Positions 8,578 to 55,046 of a stretch of DNA of 64,000 nucleotides are shown here, piece after piece (position 1 is the stretch's first letter; every line of letters begins with the position of its first letter). Source of the stretch: Alphaproteobacteria bacterium (GTDB lineage Bacteria > Pseudomonadota > Alphaproteobacteria > CACIAM-22H2); assembly GCA_017308135.1 (NCBI GenBank), contig JAFKFM010000008.1, positions 186,001 through 250,000 on the forward strand, in the 5' to 3' direction. Made by a program: the position numbers and the translations under genes. The notes below the pieces were generated by a model. It was not told the origin of the DNA. It searched no databases and saw only the letters and a list, made by a program, of their open reading frames with translations.

Positions 8578-10132
8578 CGCCGCCGTAGCCGGCCATCTCG
8601 GCCGGGTCGAGATTGTCGAACTTGGTGAATTCGCCGATGAATTTCAGCGGCACCGTGCCGATGGGCCCGTGACGCTGCTTGGCGATGATGATCTCCGCCT
8701 TCGCGTGGATCAGGTTGCCGCGCTCCATCCACTTCTGATGACGTTCGTTGAATTTCGAATCGTCCTCTTCGGGGCGGCGCATCGGCTCGGCGCGCGAATG
8801 GTAGTACTCCTCGCGGAACACGAACATCACGACGTCGGCGTCCTGTTCGATCGTGCCCGATTCACGAAGATCGGAAAGCTGCGGGCGCTTGTCTTCGCGT
8901 TGTTCGACGGCGCGCGACAGCTGCGATAGCGCCACGACGGGCACTTCCAATTCCTTGGCGAGCGCTTTGAGGCCGCGGGTGATCGCGGAGATTTCCTGCA
9001 CGCGGCCTTCGGCGCGCGCGTCGGGCGGGCCGGAGAGCAGCTGCAAATAGTCGATCACGATCATGCCCAGGCCGTGCGTGCGCTTCAGGCGCCGCGCACG
9101 CGTGCGCACGGCCGTGATCGACAGGCCCGGCGTGTCGTCGATGAACAGCGGCAGGCGGGCGAGTGTGGCCGACGCATGCGCGAATTTCTCGAAATCCGAG
9201 GCCATGACTTCGCCGCGCCGGATCTTGTCCGACGGCACTTCGACCTGTTCGGACAGAAGACGATTGGCGAGCTGCTCGGCCGACATTTCGAGCGAGAAGA
9301 ACGCGGTCACACCGCCTTCCGCGCCCTTGGGATCGGGCTCATTGCCCAGCCGCGGATTGTCCTCGCGCCATTTCATGCGCGCTTGCGCCGCGTTGAAGGC
9401 GATCTTGGTCGCGAACGCCGTCTTGCCCATCGAGGGACGGCCCGCGACGATGATGAGGTCGGAGGGGTGGAAACCGCCGAGCTTGTCGTTGAGCGCGTCG
9501 AAGCCGGTCGTCACGCCCGTGACGGCGCTGTCGCGCTTGAACGCGCTGTCGGCCATGTCGATGGCGACACCCAGCGCCCGGGAGAATTCCTTGAACCCGC
9601 CTTCGGACGAGCCCTTTTCGGCGAGGTCGAACAGCGCGCGCTCAGCTTTTTCGAGCTTCGCGGCGGAATCTTCCTCGACGTCGAATTCATGCGCTTCGTT
9701 GACGATGTCCGTGCCGATGCCGATCAATTCGCGCCGGCGATAGAGATCGAAAATCTGCTCGGCATAGTCCTTCGCGTTGATGATCGTGACCGCGTTGGCT
9801 TGCAGGCGGGCGAGATACTCGGCCCCGCCGATATCCTTCAGCTCCTCGTCGCGATCGAAATAGCTTTTGAGCGTCGCGGCGTTCGCTTGGCGGCCTTGTT
9901 CGACCAGCTTGCGGATGGCCGCGTAGATGCGTCCGTGGCGGCCATCGGCAAAATGTTCGGGTTCGAGAATCTCGCCCACGCGCTCGAAGGCGCGATTATT
10001 GGCGAGGAGGGACGCCAGCAGGCCCATCTCGATTTCGAAATTATGCGGCGGAATGCGAGGTGCAGGCGTGCCCTCGCTGCGTTCGCTCGCGGCGGGATGG
10101 GTGACGACGTTATCGCGGGCTGGCGTTTCCAT
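8564..10132 (-). CDS. dnaB: replicative DNA helicase DnaB
   Basis: A 522-residue hexameric helicase that unwinds the replication fork. The N-terminal domain starts at about residue 35 with the family motif PHNFEIEMGLLASLL. The RecA-like C-terminal domain has Walker A AGRPSMGKTAFATK, Walker B LGMIVIDYLQLL and the arginine-finger region LSQLSRAVEQREDKRPQLSD. I start at the ATG of METPARDN rather than 13 codons upstream, since the shorter form begins with a polar leader like that of other alphaproteobacterial DnaB proteins. Its upstream region holds a DnaA-box-like site and the rplI terminator. Confidence 0.97.
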   Translation of the reverse strand: METPARDNVVTHPAASERSEGTPAPRIPPHNFEIEMGLLASLLANNRAFERVGEILEPEHFADGRHGRIYAAIRKLVEQGRQANAATLKSYFDRDEELKDIGGAEYLARLQANAVTIINAKDYAEQIFDLYRRRELIGIGTDIVNEAHEFDVEEDSAAKLEKAERALFDLAEKGSSEGGFKEFSRALGVAIDMADSAFKRDSAVTGVTTGFDALNDKLGGFHPSDLIIVAGRPSMGKTAFATKIAFNAAQARMKWREDNPRLGNEPDPKGAEGGVTAFFSLEMSAEQLANRLLSEQVEVPSDKIRRGEVMASDFEKFAHASATLARLPLFIDDTPGLSITAVRTRARRLKRTHGLGMIVIDYLQLLSGPPDARAEGRVQEISAITRGLKALAKELEVPVVALSQLSRAVEQREDKRPQLSDLRESGTIEQDADVVMFVFREEYYHSRAEPMRRPEEDDSKFNERHQKWMERGNLIHAKAEIIIAKQRHGPIGTVPLKFIGEFTKFDNLDPAEMAGYGGDGEG

Positions 10133-19501: not shown

Positions 19502-20134
19502 ATGGCCGACATCACGCGAAGGGGCCTCATGCTCGTTCTGTCCTCGCCCTCGGGGGCGGGCAAAACGTCGATCTCGCGCGAGATCCTGCGCCGCGAGAGC
19601 GGCCTTACCATGTCGGTCTCCGCCACGACGCGCGCCAAGCGGCCGGGCGAGATTCACGGCACGGATTATTTCTTCGTCGACAAGACCGAGTTCGGTTTGA
19701 TGCGCAATCGCGGCGAGTTCCTGGAACACGCCAAGGTCTTCGACAACTACTACGGCACGCCGCGCAGCTTCGTCGAAGAGAAGCTGTCCGCGGGGCTCGA
19801 CGTGTTGTTCGACATCGATTGGCAGGGCACGCAGCAATTGCGCGAGGAAGCGCATACGGATCTCGTATCGGTCTTCATCCTGCCGCCGTCGACCTACGAA
19901 TTGGAGCGCCGCTTGAATGCGCGTGCACAGGACCCCGCCCATGTCGTCGCCGCGCGCATGTCAAAGGCCGCCGACGAGATGAGCCATTGGCCCGAGTACG
20001 ACTACATCATCGTCAACAGCGATCTCGACGTGTCGGTCGCGCGCGTGCAGTCGATCCTGACGGCGGAGCGCTGCAAGCGCGACCGTCAGGTCGGCCTGGG
20101 CGATTTCGTCAAACGACTGCGCGACGGCCAATGA
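19502..20134 (+). CDS. gmk: guanylate kinase
   Basis: Phosphorylates GMP to GDP. It is a 210-residue P-loop kinase with SSPSGAGKTSISRE, the GMP-binding TTRAKRPGEIHGTDYFFV and the lid region DIDWQGTQQLR. Codons and length are ordinary. The stop overlaps the start of the DUF1835 gene (ATGA). Confidence 0.98.
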   Translation: MADITRRGLMLVLSSPSGAGKTSISREILRRESGLTMSVSATTRAKRPGEIHGTDYFFVDKTEFGLMRNRGEFLEHAKVFDNYYGTPRSFVEEKLSAGLDVLFDIDWQGTQQLREEAHTDLVSVFILPPSTYELERRLNARAQDPAHVVAARMSKAADEMSHWPEYDYIIVNSDLDVSVARVQSILTAERCKRDRQVGLGDFVKRLRDGQ

Positions 20135-20991
20135 TCCTTCACATCACCAACGGCGATATCGCGGCCGACAAAATGGCGGCGGCGGGGATCGCGCCCGTCT
20201 TGCGCTGGCGCGACGTGCTGCATGACGGCGAATTGCCGGCCGATCCAACGAGCGAAACCTTCCGGGCCGCGCGCGTCGCGTTTATCGTCGAGCGCGGCTG
20301 GGCGCCCGAGCATCTGGTCGCGTCGGCTTTCGCGGCGCGCGACGCGGCTTTGGCGCTGGCGGCCAAAAGCGGCGACGAATTCGTGCTGTGGTTCGAAGCC
20401 GATCTCTACGATCAGTTCCAAATGCTCGATGTATTGGAACGGTTGCGCCGCTACGGCGTCGCCGCCGATCGGATTTCGGCGCATGTCGTCGACGCATGGC
20501 CGGGGATCGCGCGTTTCGCCGGGCTCGGCCAATTTTCGCCCGAGGATTTCAAGACCCTGGCGGCTCAAGCGCCGGCGCCGGTCGATCTCGATTTCGCCGG
20601 GCGCGCTTGGGCGGCGCTGACGGTCGCTCCCCCGCATCTGGCCGCGATCGCGCGCGCGAAGATCGGCGGCGCGCTGCGTTTCGTGCCGGACGCGTTCGCG
20701 CGCTGGATGCGCGAATTCCCGTGGACCAGCGACGGTCTGACGCTAACCGAGCGTCGCGTGGTCGATGCGTTGGCGCAAGGTCCGGCGAGTGCCGACGATC
20801 TGTTCCGCGCGATCGGCCAAGCCGAGATGCGGCCCTGGCTTGGCGATCTGTCGTTCTACGATCGGCTGGACGCGCTGGCCGAGATGGGGGCGATCCGCGC
20901 CGATGGCGATGTCTATCGCGCGGGCAAAGGCAAGATGCCTTCCCGGCCCTGGCGCTACGATCCCGAACGCGACGCGGTCGTGGCCGCGTAA
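20131..20991 (+). CDS. DUF1835 domain protein
   Basis: A 286-residue soluble protein that opens [19 protein letters not shown], the signature of the DUF1835 family. [22 protein letters not shown] near residues 85-110 is the most conserved part of such proteins. A C-terminal half (about 190-275) has a winged-helix look with [16 protein letters not shown]. The biochemical role is unknown. It is translationally coupled to gmk. Its last 37 bases overlap rsmA on the other strand, an unusual amount for this window. Confidence 0.85.
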
Positions 20992-21806
20992 GCGCGGGCG
21001 AGCGCGCAGAATTCCTCGACCGACAGCGTTTCGGCGCGGCGCGTGGGATCGATCCCGGCGGTTTCGAGCATGCTGGCCGCGTCGCCGATCGATTTGAGCG
21101 ATTGGCGCAGCATCTTGCGCCGCTGGCCGAAGGCGGCGGCGACGACGCGTTCCAGCGCTTTCGCGTCCGCCTCGGCCAAGGGTTTGGCGCGCGGCACGAT
21201 TTCGACCACGGCGGACATCACGGCGGGCGGCGGCACGAAGGCCGAGGGCGACACGTCGAACAGCGGCCGCGCTTGCCAGCGCCATTGCGCGGCGACCGCC
21301 AGGCGCCCGTAATCCTTGCCGCCGGGCTCGGCGCAAATGCGCTCGACCACTTCCTTTTGCAGCATGATCACGATGCGCTCGAACGCGTCGGGCCGGGCGA
21401 GCCAGCCGAGCAGCATATGCGTGCCCGCGTTATAGGGCAGGTTGGCGATGATCCGGCGCGGGGCCGTGCCCAGTGCGGCCGCGTCGACCGCCAGCGCGTC
21501 ACCTTCGAAGATTTCGAGCTTGCCCGGATAGGCGGCGGCGATTTCGGCGAGGGCGGGCAACGTGCGCGCGTCGCGCTCGATGGCGATGACGCGCGTCGCC
21601 CCTTCCATCAGCAACGCGCGGGTCAGGCCGCCGGGGCCCGGGCCGACCTCGATCGTCGTGCCTGTGGCGAGATCGCCGCCGTTGCGCGCGATGCGCCGCG
21701 TCAGATTCAGATCGAACAGGAAATGCTGGCCGAGGGATTTCCGCGCATCGAGCCCGTATTTGCGGACCGTCTCCGCGACCGGCGGAAGGCCGTCGTTGGT
21801 GCTCAC
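20955..21806 (-). CDS. rsmA: 16S rRNA dimethyladenosine transferase
   Basis: A 283-residue methyltransferase that dimethylates two adjacent adenines in helix 45 of 16S rRNA. It has [17 protein letters not shown], the SAM site [14 protein letters not shown] and the catalytic [14 protein letters not shown]. The chosen GTG overlaps the surA stop (GTGA). The longer frame upstream has an Arg-rich start that is an antisense-like reading of surA. The 3' end runs 37 bases into the opposing DUF1835 gene. Confidence 0.96.
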
Positions 21807-23050
21807 GCGCGAATATCGACCACGGCAACGCGGCGCAGATCGCGCAGATAGCGGCGCGCGGCGTTCTCGATCCGCTGACGGGCGAGATTGTCCTCGATAT
21901 CGGTTTCGGTCGGCACGTTCGATTGCGCTTCGGTGCGCACGCAAATCATCGCGACGGCCTCGCCGCGATCGGTGTTGAACACTTCGGTCGATTCGCCCAC
22001 GCCCAAATCCTTGACGCGCGCGCGCATGTCGGGCGTGAGATCGCCCACGCGCAAATCGGCGATGCGCTGCGGCTCGGGGATTTTGGCTTCCGTCGCGACG
22101 CGGTCGAGATCGGCGCAGCCTTGCACGGTTTCGCGCACCATCTCGGCCAGCGCCTTGGCGGCTTCGCGCTCGGCGGGGTTGGTCGCGGGGAAGACGAGCT
22201 GGGCGAGATCGACGCGCGCGTCCTCGGGCTTGGGCGGCGCGATCGTGCGCGAATCGCGCATCGCATAAAGATAGAAACCGGCGGCGACGCGCACCGGGCC
22301 GACCAACTGGCCGCGCTGTGCCGCCGCGATCGCCGGGCTTACTTCCGGATCGAGCGTTTCGCGCTCGACCCAGCCGATATCGCCCTGTTCGCCGGCGGAG
22401 GCGGATTGCGAATATTGCTGGGCCAGCACCGCGAACGGCACGCCACGGCGCAACTGCGCGATGATGTCCTCCATCCGCTCGCGCACTTCGTCTTCCTGGT
22501 CGGGCTGATCGACCGCCAGGAAGATCTCGCTCAGTTGGAACTCCTGCACCGGCTCGCCGGTCTGGTAGCGGCGCAGCACTTCCTCGACCTCGTCGCGGCC
22601 GATCTCGACCGTCGGGCGCAGGCGGGCACTCACCACGCGCTGCCAGGATTGCGTGGCCTCGATCTGGCGTTCCAGCGCCACCAGCGGCACGCCGCCTTGG
22701 CGCAACGCGCGCTCCAGCCCGCCTTGCGGCAGGTTGTTGGCCTGTTCGATGTTGCGCAGAATCTTGTCGATCTCCGCGCGCGGCAGCGACAGACCCAAGC
22801 GCCGCGCCTCCTGCATCTGGATGCGCTCGTCGATCAACTGGCGCAGCACTTGCGAGCGCATGCGCGCGCGGGTTTCGGGCGTGTCGGCGGGGCCGGCCCC
22901 CATCATCATCAATCCGACGCGCGCGTCGATGTCAAAATTCGAGATCACGTCGTCGTTTACGACAGCGACGATGCGCTGTTCTTGCGCCGCCGCGAAAGGC
23001 GGGGCGGCGAGAACCAGGGCGAGGGCGAGTCCGGCGAGAAGACGCTTCAT
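21803..23050 (-). CDS. surA: SurA-type periplasmic peptidyl-prolyl isomerase/chaperone
   Basis: A 415-residue secreted protein. The signal peptide is [23 protein letters not shown] SurA N-terminal domain follows ([16 protein letters not shown], then [18 protein letters not shown]), then a parvulin domain at about residues 175-270 with [10 protein letters not shown] and [13 protein letters not shown], and a weaker second module. It escorts outer-membrane proteins to the BAM complex. It lies between lptG and rsmA; lptD and pdxA, which are usual neighbours, are missing. Confidence 0.95.
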
Positions 23051-23084
23051 GGCGGGTCTTATACGGGAGATGGAGGGAAGAGGG

Positions 23085-24179
23085 CTAGCCGTCCTCGAGA
23101 TGGAGCAAAAGCGCCACCCCGAGCATGGCCGAAACGGCCGCCGGCGACCAGGCGGCCAGGATGACCGGAATGGCGGCACTTTGGCCCAGCGCGCCGACCA
23201 GACTGGAGACGAAGAAAAGGAGGAATCCCGCCCCCACGCCCGAGCCGATCAGCAGGCTGGTGCCGCCGCGCCGATGCGGGCGAAGCGAGAATGTCGCGGC
23301 GATCAAAACCATCGCCGCCAGCAGCAGCGGGATTGCCAGCAATTGGTGCCAATGCAGACGATGGCGCGTGGCGGAGAAGCCGGCCGCTTCCAGCAGGCGG
23401 ATGAAGCCCGGCAATTCCCAGAACGAGATCGTTTCGGGCGACGAGAACGAATCCTGGATCTGCTCGGCCGTCATGTTGGTCGGCACGCGATAGCTGCGCT
23501 CGAACCGCGAGGGGCGGTTGGGCGCGGTGATCCAGGCGTCGGACACGTCCCAATAGCCGGGGGCGAGGACGGCCTTGGCGGCGTCCACACGGCCGATGAA
23601 GCGGTCCTTGCCTTCGAAATTGAAAATGATGACGTCGTAGAGCGCCATTTCGGCGGAAGTCACGCGCCGCGCATGGACGACCGAATTGCCCTGGTCGTCG
23701 ATCTGGCGCAGCCAGAACCCGTTTTCCGACACGGCAAGCAGGCTGGAACTGCCGCGCAGCAACTGCGCTTCCATGCGTTCGTAGCCCGCGTAAAGAACGG
23801 CGGCGGCCGGGTTGATAACCGTAATCTTGAACATCCCGAACAACGCCGCGACCGCGACGACCGGCAACAGGAACTGCCAGACCGACACGCCCGCGGCGCG
23901 CGCGACGGTCAATTCGTGCGAGCGCGTCAGCCGCCAGAAGGTGATGATCGCCGCGAACAGCACGACGAAGGGGGCGAGCTGCTCGGCCATGTAGGGAAGC
24001 TTCAGCAGCGCCATGCGCAGCACCAGCCCGGTCGAGGCTTCGGGGCGGCTGGCAGCCCGGCGCAGCAATTCGATCGCGTCGAACATGTAGACGACGATCA
24101 TGAACAGCGCGAGGAAGCCGATCAGCGCCAGTGCGAATTGGCGGCCGATATAGCCCGACAACGTGGTGGAGACGCGCAT
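23085..24179 (-). CDS. lptG: LPS export ABC permease LptG
   Basis: A 364-residue inner-membrane protein of the LptF/LptG family. Three membrane segments lie in the first 120 residues and three in the last 100, with a periplasmic beta-jellyroll between. It opens STTLSGYIGRQFALALIGFL and has RAAGVSVWQFLLP, where the family contacts LptB. With LptF it extracts lipopolysaccharide from the inner membrane; the ATPase LptB is not in the window. It begins one base after the lptF stop. Confidence 0.94.
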   Translation of the reverse strand: MRVSTTLSGYIGRQFALALIGFLALFMIVVYMFDAIELLRRAASRPEASTGLVLRMALLKLPYMAEQLAPFVVLFAAIITFWRLTRSHELTVARAAGVSVWQFLLPVVAVAALFGMFKITVINPAAAVLYAGYERMEAQLLRGSSSLLAVSENGFWLRQIDDQGNSVVHARRVTSAEMALYDVIIFNFEGKDRFIGRVDAAKAVLAPGYWDVSDAWITAPNRPSRFERSYRVPTNMTAEQIQDSFSSPETISFWELPGFIRLLEAAGFSATRHRLHWHQLLAIPLLLAAMVLIAATFSLRPHRRGGTSLLIGSGVGAGFLLFFVSSLVGALGQSAAIPVILAAWSPAAVSAMLGVALLLHLEDG

Positions 24180-24180
24180 G

Positions 24181-25302
24181 CTACGCCGCCTCCGGCATCG
24201 GGCCGGGATTGCGCTTGCGGCGCGGGCCCTGCACCAGCGCCCAGGCGGAAATCGAGATCGCCGCCAGCGGAACCGCGTAGAGGAACGGGATCGTCGCCGG
24301 GATGCGCGCGGCGAGATTGGGCAGCGCGATCGAAATCGCTTGCACCGCGATGCCGGCGGCGGCCGCGGCCAGCACGCGCTTGCCCATGCCGCGGCGGTTG
24401 AAATCGCCCGGTAGCAAACAGGCGAGACCGACGATCACCAGCGCGAAGACGTAAAGCGGCGTCGATAAGCGCGTATGCGCCTCCGCGATCAGCTTGTTGG
24501 CGAAATAACGGTCGTTGCTGTTGTCGTAATCGGGCCAGAGAAGCTCGTGCAGATATCGCTCCCCGGGTTCGCGCCAGCGATACTCGGCCTGCGCGCCCGA
24601 TTGCCCGATCTCGACCGAATAGCGTTCGAAATAGAGCAGCGACAACTTGCCCGCCTCGCGATCGACCTGCTGGCGATTGCCGTTGAGCAGGATGACACGC
24701 GGGCCTTCCTCCGTTGCGGCGAGGGTGCCGCGCTCGGCCAGCAGCGTGACCGGGTTCGAAGGGTCGCGCGAATCATGGACGATAAGCCCATGCAGATCGC
24801 CATTCGCCTCACGCTCGCGGACATAGACGGTGAGGTTGCCGCCGATGCGCGTGAAGGCGCCTTCCTGCAACAACAGGCCGGAATAATCGGAGCGGATATC
24901 CGCTTGCAGATTTTTGAACTGGCTGAAGCTCGCCGGGATCAGCCACAGGTAAAACACATAGGCGATCAGCGTAGCGCCGGCGGCCAGCAGTAAGGCGGGG
25001 CGGGCGAGTTGTCCCGGCCCGTAGCCGACCGCGCGCATGACGACGAGCTCGCTGTCGCCGGTCAGGCGGTTGTAGACGAACATCGTCGACACGAAGAGCG
25101 CGATGGGCGTGACCAGCGCCAGGAAGCTCGGCATCAACAGCGTGGTCAAAAAGAAATAGCCGCCGATCGTCAGGCCGCGATTGACGATCAGATCGATGAA
25201 CCGCAGCGACTGGGTCAACCAGATCGCAAGGGTCAGCGTGACCAGCACGAACAACGCCGTGGTCAGCACCTGGCGCAGGATATAGGCGGTGATGCGGGAC
25301 AT
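24181..25302 (-). CDS. lptF: LPS export ABC permease LptF
   Basis: A 373-residue partner of LptG with the same plan. It opens MSRITAYILRQVLTTALFVL and has YNRLTGDSELVVMRAVGYG, the LptF version of the coupling helix. The C-terminal end is Arg/Lys-rich. It is the first gene of the lptF-lptG-surA-rsmA run and diverges from pepA across 168 bases. Confidence 0.94.
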   Translation of the reverse strand: MSRITAYILRQVLTTALFVLVTLTLAIWLTQSLRFIDLIVNRGLTIGGYFFLTTLLMPSFLALVTPIALFVSTMFVYNRLTGDSELVVMRAVGYGPGQLARPALLLAAGATLIAYVFYLWLIPASFSQFKNLQADIRSDYSGLLLQEGAFTRIGGNLTVYVREREANGDLHGLIVHDSRDPSNPVTLLAERGTLAATEEGPRVILLNGNRQQVDREAGKLSLLYFERYSVEIGQSGAQAEYRWREPGERYLHELLWPDYDNSNDRYFANKLIAEAHTRLSTPLYVFALVIVGLACLLPGDFNRRGMGKRVLAAAAAGIAVQAISIALPNLAARIPATIPFLYAVPLAAISISAWALVQGPRRKRNPGPMPEAA

Positions 25303-27542: not shown

Positions 27543-29135
27543 ATGAAAAATGCCGTTTTAACGATTGCCGTTGTTGCGCTGTTGGGATTTTCGACCGGCG
27601 ATAGTCGCGCCGAGCCGCCGAAATGGGGCGCGCATATCGATCTGGAAGGCAAGATCGGCAGTAAGCGCGATCTGGGCGAGGCCGATATGTTCGTGCCGCT
27701 CGCGCAGAACGCGCGGACGTTGTTGTTCGGCAATCTGCGCGCGCGTTTGGACGATAACGAAAGTCAGGAAGGCAATTTCGGCGTCGGCCTTCGGCACATG
27801 CTCGACGCGGGCTGGAACCTCGGCGCCTACGGCTATTTCGACCGGCGCCGGACCGAGATGCGCAACGCCTTCTCGCAAGCGACGCTCGGCCTGGAAGCGC
27901 TGTCGCTCGATTGGGATTTCCGCGCCAATGCCTATGTGCCGACGGGCCGGCGCGTCTACGAGGTCGATCGCTTCAATACGGCGGAGGTATCTGGGACGAC
28001 CGTGATCTTCCGCGGCGGCGAAGAGCGCGCGATGGGTGGTTTCGACGCCGAGATCGGCTGGCGCGCGCCGATTTTCGCGCCCGAAGACGGCAAGCAATTC
28101 CGCCTTTATGCGGGCGGCTACCGCTTCACCGAAGACAGGCTGCCCGATGTCGCGGGGCCGCGATTGCGGGCGGAATTCGTGCTCGATCAGGTTCCCGGGC
28201 TTTGGAACGGCGGGCGCCTGTCGTTGGGCGCCGAATGGCAGCGCGATACGCCGCGCGGCGCGCAGAATTTTTTCGGGGCGCGGTTGCGCGTTCCGCTGCA
28301 ATGGGGCGGCGGCCCGGCGCGCGCGTTGACGCCGATGGAGCGGCGCATGACCGATCCGGTCGTGCGCGATATCGACGTCGTCGCGCAGGCCGGCACGTTC
28401 GGCGCGCCGGAAGCCGCGACGGCGAAAGCGGGCGGCGGTGCTTTCACCGTGCTCAATAGCGCCACGACGACCGGCGCCAATCTCGCGACGGCCATCACAA
28501 ACGCCGGCAACAACAGCACGGTTCTGCTGTCCGGCAATTTCGATACCGGCGCGACGCTGCTGAATATGGCGACGGGGCAAACCTTGACCGGTACGATGAC
28601 AGTACAAAGCGCGTCGGGCCGTTTGGCGACCGTCAATACCGGCGCCACGATAACAGCCGCCAACGCGTCCAGCGCGATCCAGGTCAATGCGGGCGGTACG
28701 GTATCCGGATTGGCCGTGTCGAACGTCTATAGCGGCGGTGCGGGTGGGCGCACCATTCTCGTCACGGACGGTTCCACCAACGTAAATATCTTCAACAATC
28801 GCATCACCGCCACGCAAAGTGGCGCCAATGGGGCGCTAGCTATCGCCGTCGGTCAGAACACGTCCGCGACGATCGCCGGCAACACGCTCATCGTTACGGG
28901 TAGCGGCGGTGCCCAAACGCTGACCGCGTTGGGGATAAACAGCAACAATACGACCGTTACGGTATCGAATAATTCGCTCGGTGCGTCGGGCGGGACCACG
29001 AACAATATCGTCTGGTCCACCGGGACGACGACGATTAACGCCGGATCGACGGGCAATATCCGCGGTTCGGGCGTATGCAACGGGACCAGCGCCAGCGGTT
29101 CCGTGGCATTCACCAATGGGACGACCTGTCCGTAA
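27543..29135 (+). CDS. inverse autotransporter with beta-helical passenger
   Basis: A 530-residue outer-membrane protein with no close functional name. A signal peptide ends near SRAEPPKW (residue 23). Residues about 25-260 look like an inverse-autotransporter (intimin/invasin-type) beta-barrel: GLRHMLDAGWNLGAYGYFD, then QATLGLEALSLDWDFRANAY and YVPTGRRVYEV are family-like. A short linker, then a passenger of about 250 residues follows, rich in Thr, Asn, Gly and Ser. Repeated short turns such as VNIFNNRITA, ATIAGNTLIV and VTVSNNSLGA suggest a right-handed parallel beta-helix. There are no Ig-like repeats, unlike most intimins. Two cysteines at 512 and 529 may form a terminal disulfide. It lies alone between holC and ndk with hairpins on both sides. 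Likely a surface adhesin; the ligand is unknown. Confidence 0.8.
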   Translation: MKNAVLTIAVVALLGFSTGDSRAEPPKWGAHIDLEGKIGSKRDLGEADMFVPLAQNARTLLFGNLRARLDDNESQEGNFGVGLRHMLDAGWNLGAYGYFDRRRTEMRNAFSQATLGLEALSLDWDFRANAYVPTGRRVYEVDRFNTAEVSGTTVIFRGGEERAMGGFDAEIGWRAPIFAPEDGKQFRLYAGGYRFTEDRLPDVAGPRLRAEFVLDQVPGLWNGGRLSLGAEWQRDTPRGAQNFFGARLRVPLQWGGGPARALTPMERRMTDPVVRDIDVVAQAGTFGAPEAATAKAGGGAFTVLNSATTTGANLATAITNAGNNSTVLLSGNFDTGATLLNMATGQTLTGTMTVQSASGRLATVNTGATITAANASSAIQVNAGGTVSGLAVSNVYSGGAGGRTILVTDGSTNVNIFNNRITATQSGANGALAIAVGQNTSATIAGNTLIVTGSGGAQTLTALGINSNNTTVTVSNNSLGASGGTTNNIVWSTGTTTINAGSTGNIRGSGVCNGTSASGSVAFTNGTTCP

Positions 29136-51321: not shown

Positions 51322-53075
51322 ATATCTTCGCCGAATTCCACGCCGTACTCGCCAAGGCCCTCGACGCGCTGGTCGCAGAAGGCAAGCTGCCCGCCGGGCT
51401 CGACCTCTCGCGCGCCGTGGTCGAACCGCCGCGCGACATCACGCACGGGGATTTATCGACCAACGCCGCTTTGGTGCTGTCAAAGGGGGCGAAGATGAAA
51501 CCGCGCGACGTGGCGGAATTGCTCTCCGCCAAGCTCGCCGCCGATCCGCGCATTGCCGGAACCGATATCGCCGGGCCGGGCTTCGTGAACATGAAGCTCA
51601 AGCCCGAGATTTGGCGCGATCTCGCACGTTCGATCCTGACGCTGGGCGAAAAATTCGGCCACGGTGCGATGGGCGGCGGCAAGAAGGTCAACGTCGAATA
51701 CGTTTCCGCCAATCCGACGGGGCCGATGCATGTCGGCCATTGCCGGGGAGCGGTCGTCGGCGATGCGCTGGCCGCGTTGCTGGAAAAAACCGGCCACGAC
51801 GTGACGCGCGAATACTACATCAACGACGCGGGCGCGCAGGTCGATGTGCTGGCACGCTCCGTCCATCATCGCTATCGCGAAGCTTTGGGCGAAAATGTCG
51901 GCCCGGTCGCCGAAGGGCTTTACCCGGGCGATTATCTGAAGCCGGTCGGTGCCGCACTCGCCGCCGAATTCGGCGCCAAGTATCAAACGGCGGCGGAATC
52001 CGAGTGGCTCACACTGTTCCGCGAGCGCGCCATCGCCGCGATGATGGATTTGATCCGCGAGGATCTGAAGGCGCTGGGCGTCGTCCACAAGGTCTTCTCC
52101 AGCGAGAAGAACGACATCGTCGGCAAGGGCCGCGTCAACGATGCGATCGAATATTTGAAGGCGCGCGATCTCGTTTACACCGGCGTGCTCGAACCGCCCA
52201 AGGGCATGAAGCCCGAAGATTGGGAACCGCGCCCGCAAATGCTGTTCCGCGCCACGTCGTTCGGCGACGACGTTGACCGGCCGCTCGCGAAGTCCGACGG
52301 CACCTGGACCTATTTCGCGGCTGACATGGCCTATCACCTCGACAAATATCGCCGCGGTTTCGAGCGCTTGATCGACGTATGGGGTGCCGATCACGGCGGC
52401 TACGTGAAGCGCGTCGACGCGGCCGTGAAAGCGTTGTCCGAAGGCCGCGCGACGCTGGAAGTGAAGCTCTGCCAGATGGTCAATCTTCTGGACAAGGGCG
52501 AGCCGGTGAAGATGTCCAAGCGTGCCGGCACCTTCGTCACGCTGCGCGATGTGGTCGACGAAGTGGGTGCCGACGTCGTGCGCTTCGTGATGCTGACGCG
52601 CAAGCAGGATCAGCATATCGATTTCGACTTCGCCAAAGTGCGCGAGCAGTCGAAGGACAATCCGGTCTTCTACGTGCAATACGCGCATGCGCGGCACCAT
52701 TCGGCGTTCCGCCAAGCGAAGGCGACATTCGACGGGATCGACCTGTCGGACGCCACGCTTGCGAAAGCCGATCTTTCGCGCATCGGCGACGCGGACGAAC
52801 TCGCCTTGCTGCGCATGTTGTCGGGCTATCCGCGTATGCTGGAAGCGGCGGCGGAGGCGAGCGAGCCGCATCGCGTCGCGTTTTGGCTTTATGATCTTGC
52901 TTCCGCGTTCCATGCGCTGTGGACGCGCGGCAATGCCGAGCCCGGTTTGCGCTTCGTGCTGCCCGAAGATCGCGACACGACGCTCGCGCGTTTGGCCTTG
53001 GTGCGCAGCGTCGGCATCACGGTCGCTTCGGGCTTGCGCTTGCTGGGTGTGACGCCCGCCGAGGAGTTGCGCTGA
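51318..53075 (+). CDS. argS: arginyl-tRNA synthetase
   Basis: A 585-residue class I synthetase. An N-terminal tRNA-binding domain (about 1-120) precedes the HIGH motif, here HVGH in [13 protein letters not shown], and the KMSK loop [12 protein letters not shown]. The C-terminal anticodon-binding helical domain includes [11 protein letters not shown]. It overlaps the dgt stop, and the SPOR gene follows by two bases. Confidence 0.97.
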
Positions 53076-53077
53076 CG

Positions 53078-54013
53078 ATGCTGCCCGAAGGCGCCAAACC
53101 GATCTTGTCGAGCGGCGACGAGCCCGCCCCGTTGAGCGGCGGGCCCCAACGCACGCGCGGCAATGGCGGCGGCGGGCGCAATTGGGGGCGCCTCATCGCG
53201 GCCGTTTTCGCGTTCGCGGCCGTGGTCGGCTTCGGCTCGCTGCTTGCCTACACGTATTTGGAAACGCGCGACGGATCGACCGATCCCAATTCGTTGCCGA
53301 TCGTGCGCGCCGATACGCGGCCGATGAAAACGCGGCCCGATCAGCCCGGCGGCATCGAGGTGCCGTTCCAGGACAAGGAAATCTATAACCGCGTCGGCCA
53401 GCAATCCTCGGGCGGTGCCACGACCCAGGCCGCGCAAGGCGGGCAGGTGGAACGCTTGCTGCCCGGCCCCGAAGCCGTGATGCCGCGCCCTGTGCCCGAA
53501 CCGCCGCCGGCCCCCCGTGTGGTGGTGCCCGACGCGCCGCAGGTCGAGCCGACCGCCGACGCCGTGCCGGTGACCGCACCGCCGCGCGCCTCGATCCAGC
53601 CGGGCGGGGCGAACGCGCCCGCCCCCGTGCCGCCACCGGCACCGTTGCAGGCGCCGTCGGCGCCGCGTCCGCAACAAGCGGCCCCCGCGGCCCCCACGAC
53701 TGCGGCTCCGGCCGCACGCCCGGCGACGCCGGCTCCGGCCCCGCAAGTCGCGGCCGCACCCGCCGCCGGGGGCATTCGCATTCAATTGGCGTCGGTACGC
53801 AGTCAAGCCGATGCGCAGCGCGAATGGGAACGTTTGCGCCGCCAGCATGGCGACGTGCTCGGCAATCTGACCGCCAGTTTCCCGACCGTCGATCTGGGCG
53901 ATCGCGGCATGTTCTGGCGTATCCAAGCGGGCGGTTTCGCCAATGCCGATGCGGCGCAAGCCGCGTGCGCCGCGTTGCGCGCGCGCGGGGCGGGCTGCAA
54001 CGTGGTGCGATAG
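53078..54013 (+). CDS. SPOR-domain cell-division protein
   Basis: A 311-residue inner-membrane protein. A short cytoplasmic part is followed by one membrane helix at about residues 36-58, a Pro/Ala-rich linker of about 110 residues, and a C-terminal SPOR domain (about 230-311) that opens IRIQLASVRSQADAQREW. SPOR domains bind denuded glycan at the division septum. The linker is of low complexity and drifts freely. It lies between argS and nagZ as in related bacteria. Confidence 0.92.
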   Translation: MLPEGAKPILSSGDEPAPLSGGPQRTRGNGGGGRNWGRLIAAVFAFAAVVGFGSLLAYTYLETRDGSTDPNSLPIVRADTRPMKTRPDQPGGIEVPFQDKEIYNRVGQQSSGGATTQAAQGGQVERLLPGPEAVMPRPVPEPPPAPRVVVPDAPQVEPTADAVPVTAPPRASIQPGGANAPAPVPPPAPLQAPSAPRPQQAAPAAPTTAAPAARPATPAPAPQVAAAPAAGGIRIQLASVRSQADAQREWERLRRQHGDVLGNLTASFPTVDLGDRGMFWRIQAGGFANADAAQAACAALRARGAGCNVVR

Positions 54014-54026
54014 GAGAGGAGAAGCC

Positions 54027-55046
54027 ATGCGTCCTTCCGCGATCATTTACGGCTGTGCGGGCACGTCGCTGACCGCCGAGGAACGCGCGCTCTATCGCGA
54101 TGTCGATCCGCTGGGCTTCATCCTGTTCGCGCGCAACGTGGGCACGCCCGACGAAGTGAAGGCGCTGGTCGCGGATATGCGAAACTGCGTGGGCCGCGCC
54201 GACGCGCCTGTGTTGGTCGATCAGGAAGGCGGACGCGTCGCGCGGTTGAAGCCGCCGCATTGGCGCAAGGCGCCGCCCGCGATGACCTTTGTCGAGCGTG
54301 CGGGATCGCGCGGCGAAGCGGCCGCACTCGCGGCGTTGCGCACCAACTTCCATCTGATCGCGCGCGAATTGCTGGATGTGGGCATCACCGTCGATTGTGC
54401 GCCGGTCGCCGACGTGCCGGTTCCCGGCGCGCACGACATCATCGGCGATCGCGCTTACGGCAGCGATCCCGCCGCGATCGGCCGCTATGGCCGCGCCGTC
54501 GCGGAAGGCTTGCTCGATGGCGGCGTGTTGCCGGTGCTGAAGCACATTCCCGGCCATGGGCGCGCGCGCGCCGACAGCCATTTGGAATTGCCGGTCGTCG
54601 AAGCGAGCGTGGAAGAACTCGAACGCACGGATTTCGTGCCGTTCAAGGCGCTGGCCGATCTGCCCTGGGGCATGACCGCGCATGTGAAATTCCCGGCCTT
54701 CGATCCCGATCGCCCGGCGACGACCTCGCCCGTGGCGATCGAGGCGATCATCCGCCGCCGGATCGGGTTTCAGGGCTTGCTGTTGTCGGACGATCTTTCG
54801 ATGAAGGCGCTCGACGGTGATTTCGAAGCGCGCACGCGCGCCTGCCTCGACGCCGGCTGCGACGTGGTCCTCCATTGCAACGGTGATTTCGCCGAGATGA
54901 AGGCGGTCGCCGTGGCCGCGCGCCCGCTCAACGATTCCGCGATGGCGCGGGTGGAGGCGGGGGAACGCCTGCGCCTGTCGCGTGCGCAAAGGTCGTTCGA
55001 CGAAGCGGCGGCCAAAGCGGAGCTGGACGCGTTTTTGGCCGCATAA
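54027..55046 (+). CDS. nagZ: beta-N-acetylhexosaminidase NagZ
   Basis: A 339-residue GH3 enzyme that removes N-acetylglucosamine from recycled muropeptides. It has PLGFILFARNVGTPDE, LVDQEGGRVARLKPP and the catalytic KHIPGHGRARADSHLELP, the diagnostic loop of the family. The nucleophile lies in LLLSDDLSMKAL. GGAGAGGAG precedes the ATG. The 148-base gap downstream holds a DnaA-box match and an inverted repeat. Confidence 0.97.
   Translation: MRPSAIIYGCAGTSLTAEERALYRDVDPLGFILFARNVGTPDEVKALVADMRNCVGRADAPVLVDQEGGRVARLKPPHWRKAPPAMTFVERAGSRGEAAALAALRTNFHLIARELLDVGITVDCAPVADVPVPGAHDIIGDRAYGSDPAAIGRYGRAVAEGLLDGGVLPVLKHIPGHGRARADSHLELPVVEASVEELERTDFVPFKALADLPWGMTAHVKFPAFDPDRPATTSPVAIEAIIRRRIGFQGLLLSDDLSMKALDGDFEARTRACLDAGCDVVLHCNGDFAEMKAVAVAARPLNDSAMARVEAGERLRLSRAQRSFDEAAAKAELDAFLAA

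Follow-up and report, generated by a model that had tools for sequence, protein, structure and literature searches.

Separate histories of lptD and pdxA, two genes missing from an alphaproteobacterial lptFG-surA-rsmA cluster

Several described systems come close to the arrangement reported here. As in xenologous gene displacement, native copies are gone, orthologs of other ancestry occupy new sites, and the gene trees conflict with host markers; unlike the described cases, two native genes of two loci are exchanged for one two-gene operon, which is found at several sites within one family. The element that carries this pdxA-pdxJ operon in the host genome resembles tRNA-integrated islands and ICE-like elements in its 47-bp repeat of a tRNA-Arg 3' end, tyrosine integrase, low G+C content, and transposase and Mob_Pre domains, but differs from them in holding the only PLP-synthesis operon found in its host. 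The surrounding genes match those of cop/cus copper-resistance clusters (P-type ATPases, MerR, HMA, DUF305, and DUF411 proteins, oxidase, cupredoxin, CusF, RND, and two-component genes), with the difference that pdxA-pdxJ is embedded among them. In Helicobacter pylori, pdxA and pdxJ are adjacent. Both H. pylori genes are reported to be repressed by iron through Fur. The likeness would lie in metal-linked regulation of both genes, whereas the metal and regulator there are iron and Fur, and the association in our host is with a copper island.

A compact lptF-lptG-surA-rsmA cluster

The window, that is, the whole 64,000-nucleotide stretch analyzed (G000:C8:186001-250000), comes from host genome G000, which comprises 5.2 Mb in 20 contigs and is 98.2% complete. 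The cluster consists of the following features, numbered from the first base of the window:

24181..25302, minus strand: lptF, LPS export permease (TIGR04407, 247.8 bits; cut-off 230)
23085..24179, minus strand: lptG, LPS export permease (TIGR04408, 284.7 bits; cut-off 240)
23051..23084: 34-base lptG-surA spacer, by direct reading; the position of lptD in genus g5 and many other Alphaproteobacteria
21803..23050, minus strand: surA, periplasmic chaperone (Pfam SurA_N and Rotamase domains)
21803..21806: 4-base surA/rsmA overlap, by direct reading; the position of pdxA in G012, G013, G014, G015, and G020
20955..21806, minus strand: rsmA (ksgA), 16S rRNA dimethyltransferase (TIGR00755, 228.2 bits; cut-off 171)
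19502..20134, plus strand: gmk, named from its own sequence; convergent, marking the rsmA end of the cluster

Direct reading of the minus strand of the window found neither lptD nor pdxA between lptF, lptG, surA, and rsmA, in agreement with an earlier note on this DNA, which had reported both genes missing from the cluster. That note also described the two junctions accurately: surA follows lptG after 34 bases, the spacer lying exactly at 23051-23084, and surA and rsmA overlap, with 4 bases common to both. The start of rsmA is our choice, based on this junction. For surA, the NCBIfam equivalog scored 103.7, below its cut-off of 394, and the assignment is supported by the SurA_N and rotamase domains. 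Comparison of cluster order showed that the gmk neighbor is conserved in relatives, and the closest named loci belong to metagenome genomes labeled Proteobacteria, Azospirillum sp., and Rhodospirillales. Elsewhere in the window, positions 27543-29135, located 3' of pepA and a holC-like gene, encode a secreted protein of 530 aa that by eye resembles a β-barrel of the inverse-autotransporter type.

Very probably, the two gaps result from two separate events: lptD was relocated once, by descent, and native pdxA, together with native pdxJ, was replaced by an operon with a different ancestry, which in G000 resides on a copper island at a tRNA-Arg gene. The earlier note had both genes lost from the locus or moved; movement is correct for lptD but does not describe pdxA, which was exchanged along with pdxJ rather than simply moved. 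A gene "missing" from a conserved cluster can in this way signal replacement, not loss.

Early relocation of lptD

In G000, lptD lies at C6:280414, between rpe and a convergent gene of the lptE family. Its product exceeds the Pfam cut-offs for the LptD barrel and N-terminal domains (PF04453, 195.6; PF03968, 26.0) and matches two LptD NCBIfam equivalogs at scores under their cut-offs. The genome also encodes lpxC (C7:121909), so that lipid A synthesis is expected. These findings accord with the earlier reasoning that LptD should be encoded elsewhere if LPS is made; the genome-wide check proposed for lptD, pdxA, and lpxC located all three in G000, outside the cluster. A true loss, in which the organism could not assemble LPS through LptD or could not make B6 de novo, has in its favor that both genes are absent from the usual locus, but its probability is negligible, considering that lptD, the LptE-family gene, lpxC, pdxA, and pdxJ are all present, with scores over Pfam cut-offs. 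Lost LPS assembly in particular was rejected on the presence of the first three of these genes.

The family set comprised 23 genomes, G000 and 22 relatives, with the lptG locus readable in 20. Three of these 20 (G014, G018, and G020, all of genus g5) carry lptD between lptG and surA, and in the other 17, including all nine readable genomes of the window's genus, lptD is absent beside lptG. Among the non-g5 family genomes having an lptD match, rpe shares the stretch with lptD in every case (18 of 18), at a distance of at most 390 bases in 17 genomes and 1,170 bases in G012, and lptE is found within 240 bases of lptD in 16, the exceptions being G012 and G003, the latter at a contig end. In the LptD tree, the 18 non-g5 family sequences form one clade with 100/100 support, apart from g5. 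Because the new site is common to all 18 genomes and their LptD sequences constitute a single clade, we conclude that lptD moved once, early, in the ancestor of the non-g5 genera of the family and was inherited vertically. The notion of a recent loss is not borne out: close relatives are likewise without both genes at the cluster, the outcome that the earlier note had named as the sign of an old lineage trait, and for lptD the move is such a trait.

The departure of lptD from the cluster happened in other lineages too. Across 80 named genome-contig loci, some of them cut by contig ends, lptD is present in the cluster at 48, surA or pdxA occurs without lptD at 19 (Azospirillum among them), and 13 show neither. 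The position of lptF varies as well: in G013, lptF (L246:14107-15234) is located ~6 kb from lptE, and the lptG loci of G013 (L224) and G011 (L222) showed no adjacent lptF.

Displacement of native pdxA and pdxJ

The native order surA-pdxA-rsmA is kept in G012, G013, G014, G015, and G020, and the native pdxJ site, beside rsh and near acpS, is occupied in six genomes of genera g3-g6 (G012, G013, G014, G015, G018, and G020). Twelve genomes of g1, g2, and g7 have acpS immediately next to rsh, without pdxJ in between, the two genes overlapping by 4 bases at the seven junctions that were read and also in G011. Native pdxA and native pdxJ are gone in these three genera wherever the sites are readable, and pdxA is instead found directly beside pdxJ in 12 of the 23 family genomes, all from g1, g2, and g7. 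An empty rsh site alone is no proof of replacement, since in G037, outside the family, pdxJ is also located away from rsh. Five of the 23 family genomes (G001, G007, G017, G021, and G022) yielded no PdxJ match, and three of the five, G007, G021, and G022, belong to g1/g7; many of the relatives are drafts, for which absences and island contents are unreliable, and draft incompleteness may account for some of the missing matches. In G017 (g4), which combines the lack of a PdxJ match with a pdxJ remnant, native pdxJ was lost elsewhere in the family; the remnant, N-terminal, is at the native site (L276:4241-4453), between acpS and a gene that by eye is superoxide-dismutase-like. The best PdxA of the same genome groups with a catabolic-looking PdxA copy of G000. 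Synthesis of B6 via PdxS was rejected as well: PF01680 had no match in the family, and its one match among 41 genomes was in the non-family genome G024.

In G000, the biosynthetic-type pdxA was located at C11:53067, within an operon (pdxJ, 52302-53030; pdxA, 53034-54044); no other biosynthetic pdxA and no other pdxJ was found in this genome. PdxA (4-hydroxythreonine-4-phosphate dehydrogenase) scores 383.9 against TIGR00557 (cut-off 290.35) and 464.3 against NF003699 (cut-off 378), PdxJ (pyridoxine 5'-phosphate synthase) scores 387.8 against NF003624 (cut-off 331), and histidines 171, 216, and 271 of PdxA, which we take to be metal-binding, are conserved. Judging from these family scores and conserved residues, both proteins are predicted to work normally. 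A second PdxA-family gene of G000 (C7:618079; L036:6972-7991), with apparent transporter and dehydrogenase genes as neighbors, scored under the pdxA equivalog cut-off, and its product is likely catabolic.

Phylogenetic analysis of the adjacent pdxA-pdxJ genes, hereafter the pair, sets them apart from the native ones. In the unrooted PdxJ tree of 57 sequences (41 native and 16 from pairs), in which groups are read as splits, 40 of the 41 native sequences, those of the family included, are separated from all 16 pair sequences plus native G036 with 99/97 support. In the PdxA tree, also unrooted, 14 of 15 pair sequences, including two from plasmids and that of G353 from another family, group with the partial sequence of G001 (99/95), and the pair grouping was repeated at 97/95 when Azospirillum and others were added. 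The exception is the pair PdxA of G011, which falls with a native PdxA (98/95), so that pairs arose repeatedly or underwent recombination. A Pseudoroseomonas plasmid carries the sister of the g7 pair (100/100), and at least two acquisitions therefore fit best. The PdxA tree omits G017, G026, and G030, the marker tree omits five outgroup genomes (G027, G030, G032, G034, and G035), and a Mesorhizobium plasmid is represented by its PdxJ, its PdxA, which reads in two pieces, having been omitted.

The main competing explanation is plain relocation, whereby native pdxA would have joined native pdxJ in a common ancestor, just as lptD joined rpe and lptE. The two genes catalyze consecutive steps, which makes their clustering plausible, and the PdxA of G011 does group with a native one. 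In AU tests with the family held together, PdxA alone gave weak rejection (p 0.048) and, without G011, none (p 0.119). However, PdxJ (p 0.00437) and the concatenation of PdxA and PdxJ (p 7.7e-68; without G011, p 1.9e-7) both rejected the same constraint. Furthermore, pdxJ is gone from its native site too, the pair occupies several different sites in the family, the g7 pair is closest to a plasmid pair, and the PdxA of near relative G001 is only 58% identical to that of G000, compared with 95% for LptD and 99% for Rsh. We therefore consider relocation improbable and rejected it on the empty pdxJ site, the split in the PdxJ tree, and the AU tests.

Comparison of neighboring genes resolved seven pair sites within the family: one common to G002-G005, another to G006 and G008, a third to G016 and G019, and one each in G000, G009, G010, and G011. 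Of 385 genomes sampled evenly across the class, 143 passed the PdxA threshold and 235 were PdxJ-positive, 150 of the latter being listed; among the 103 genomes present in both the listed PdxA and the listed PdxJ matches, pdxA and pdxJ are adjacent in three, G000, G002, and G353. Among the 30 PdxA loci closest to the island type, 2 have pdxJ as a neighbor, 25 have surA and/or rsmA, and 3 have none of these. Another alphaproteobacterial family, f82 (G103, G217, and G386; L350, L351, and L352), shows pdxA without surA/rsmA or pdxJ on the stretch examined.

The pair is also carried by at least three alphaproteobacterial plasmids, those of Mesorhizobium NBSH29 (typed as conjugative), Pseudoroseomonas cervicalis (pL11-C), and Geminicoccaceae SCSIO 64248 (p2), a minimum obtained by comparing the matches listed for 40 of 516 PdxA and 40 of 48 PdxJ records. 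The PdxJ context was inspected for 10 of these 48 records, namely, the three pairs, two Azospirillum replicons, and five others. These five are free of copper-resistance annotation and consist of three chromosome-type pdxJ-acpS clusters, one core-gene region, and one sugar-metabolism region with a divergent PdxJ. In Azospirillum thermophilum NZ_CP029356 (L391), a replicon called a plasmid, two ancestral clusters are found together: lptG-peptidylprolyl isomerase-pdxA and, ~5 kb on, rsh, pdxJ, acpS, lepB, rnc, and era. Azospirillum as the direct donor was rejected, as it is not sister to the pairs in the PdxA tree (the PdxJ tree is without Azospirillum). By contrast with its native gene order, G036 groups with the pairs in the PdxA and PdxJ trees and in the concatenation, and it may represent a lineage close to the donor. 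Phage carriage was rejected: five phage records contained only distant PdxA matches, of 39-52% identity.

Taken together, the closed native sites, the conflicting trees, the several sites, and the plasmid copies lead to the conclusion that, in the 12 genomes of g1, g2, and g7, native pdxA and pdxJ did not simply move but gave way to a pdxA-pdxJ operon with a different ancestry. Most likely, a mobile operon made the native genes redundant or, alternatively, rescued a lineage already without them, following a B6-auxotrophic stage. By either route, once the native copies were gone, the operon would have become essential and would have been kept for that reason, and its carrier would have been fixed in the host. 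An essential cofactor pathway traveling as a two-gene cassette, located in G000 on a copper-resistance island, would help to explain the patchy pdxA and pdxJ content of draft genomes, would caution against inferring B6 auxotrophy from bins that lose islands, and would make it possible to test directly why genes for B6 synthesis surface as copper-tolerance genes in Brucella Tn-seq.

The tRNA-Arg island and its copper genes

The G+C content of contig C11 falls from 0.67 to 0.53 at ~30.0 kb and reverts at ~102.7 kb, delimiting a 72.7-kb region with a G+C content of 0.591, compared with 0.660 and 0.651 in the flanks. The borders coincide with an exact 47-bp direct repeat (C11:29914-29960 and 102646-102692), the second copy of which covers the 3' end of tRNA-Arg(ccg), and a tyrosine integrase (Phage_integrase, PF00589; ORF L388:8220-9698) extends into the tRNA at 9649-9725. 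Because of the tRNA 3'-end repeat at both borders, the adjacent integrase, and the G+C shift, we conclude that pdxA-pdxJ of G000 lies within a tRNA-Arg genomic island. The island contains transposase domains, and one Mob_Pre domain but no full conjugation system was identified in the subset of island ORFs scanned. Misjoining or contamination of the C11 island or of the cluster junction could be suspected in a 20-contig genome with an island whose G+C content differs from that of its flanks. Such an artefact is highly unlikely, however: the contamination estimate is 0.83%, the G+C change coincides with the tRNA-Arg repeat and integrase, as site-specific integration predicts, the island flanks match the composition of the window, and the cluster order recurs in relatives. 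Near the integrase (L388:2984-4933), a small protein that by eye is multiubiquitin-like, a DUF6791-ThiF E1-like protein, and a third small ORF possibly form a ubiquitin-like conjugation cassette.

The copper genes around the pair in G000 encode two P-type ATPases, a MerR regulator, an HMA protein, DUF305 and DUF411 proteins, a response regulator, a kinase, a multicopper oxidase, a cupredoxin, CusF, and an RND pump; one further product weakly matches outer-membrane efflux proteins. The pair shares the strand of the two-component genes and comes after them. G009 carries, in this order and on a single strand, genes for a copper ATPase and an HMA protein, then pdxA and pdxJ, and then genes for a response regulator, a kinase, a cytochrome c, an efflux protein, and an oxidase; the run from the ATPase to the kinase has short gaps. 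Overall, copper markers were detected at 4 of the 11 distinct pair sites (G000, G009, and the Mesorhizobium and Geminicoccaceae plasmids), on stretches that vary in length (3.5 kb in G019), and at none of 77 control loci, which are native core sites rather than random places. This enrichment over the native controls is suggestive only.

These data bear on two readings of the copper association. The first, to which we give slightly better than even odds, is hitch-hiking: islands gather unrelated cargo, and pdxAJ was kept only because the host had lost its own copy. It fits the 7 of 11 pair sites without a copper marker, including that of the P. cervicalis plasmid, where the pair adjoins phn genes. 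The copper gene order beside the pair differs between G000 and G009, and, apart from the oxidase (86% identity), the copper genes compared are 39-65% identical, with PdxA at 60%. Moreover, plasmids often carry copper-type P-type ATPases, which occur in 4,273 of 72,556 records (4,810 places in 7.3 billion bases); by our post hoc arithmetic, a random plasmid position lies within ~8 kb of one in ~1% of cases, and the Mesorhizobium plasmid counts as a copper site through an oxidase, cueR, and DUF411, not through that ATPase. Against hitch-hiking stand the contrast between pair sites and controls, subject to the nature of the latter, the closely spaced single-strand run of G009, and the behavior of Brucella abortus. 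A Tn-seq study of this bacterium under copper reports pdxJ (-1.74), pdxA (-1.63), and pdxH (-1.06) as needed, and its authors suggest PLP-dependent HisC as the reason for the B6 need (PMC13001215). By analogy with this requirement, the link between copper and pdxAJ may be functional.

The second reading, which we put forward tentatively, is that some mobile copper-resistance islands of Alphaproteobacteria carry de novo B6 synthesis as a functional module, in which pdxA-pdxJ would be co-expressed with cop/cus genes, sustain PLP when copper disables its supply, displace the chromosomal copies, and thereby tie the host to the island. Among the open-licence papers listed, none describes pdxAJ as copper-island cargo in its title or the opening of its abstract. 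A CueR-type operator was rejected: among 390 loci, there was no exact match to a CueR-box pattern. On the Geminicoccaceae plasmid p2 (L307:3598-6207), a cas3-annotated helicase is encoded directly 5' of pdxA, its end overlapping the pdxA start.
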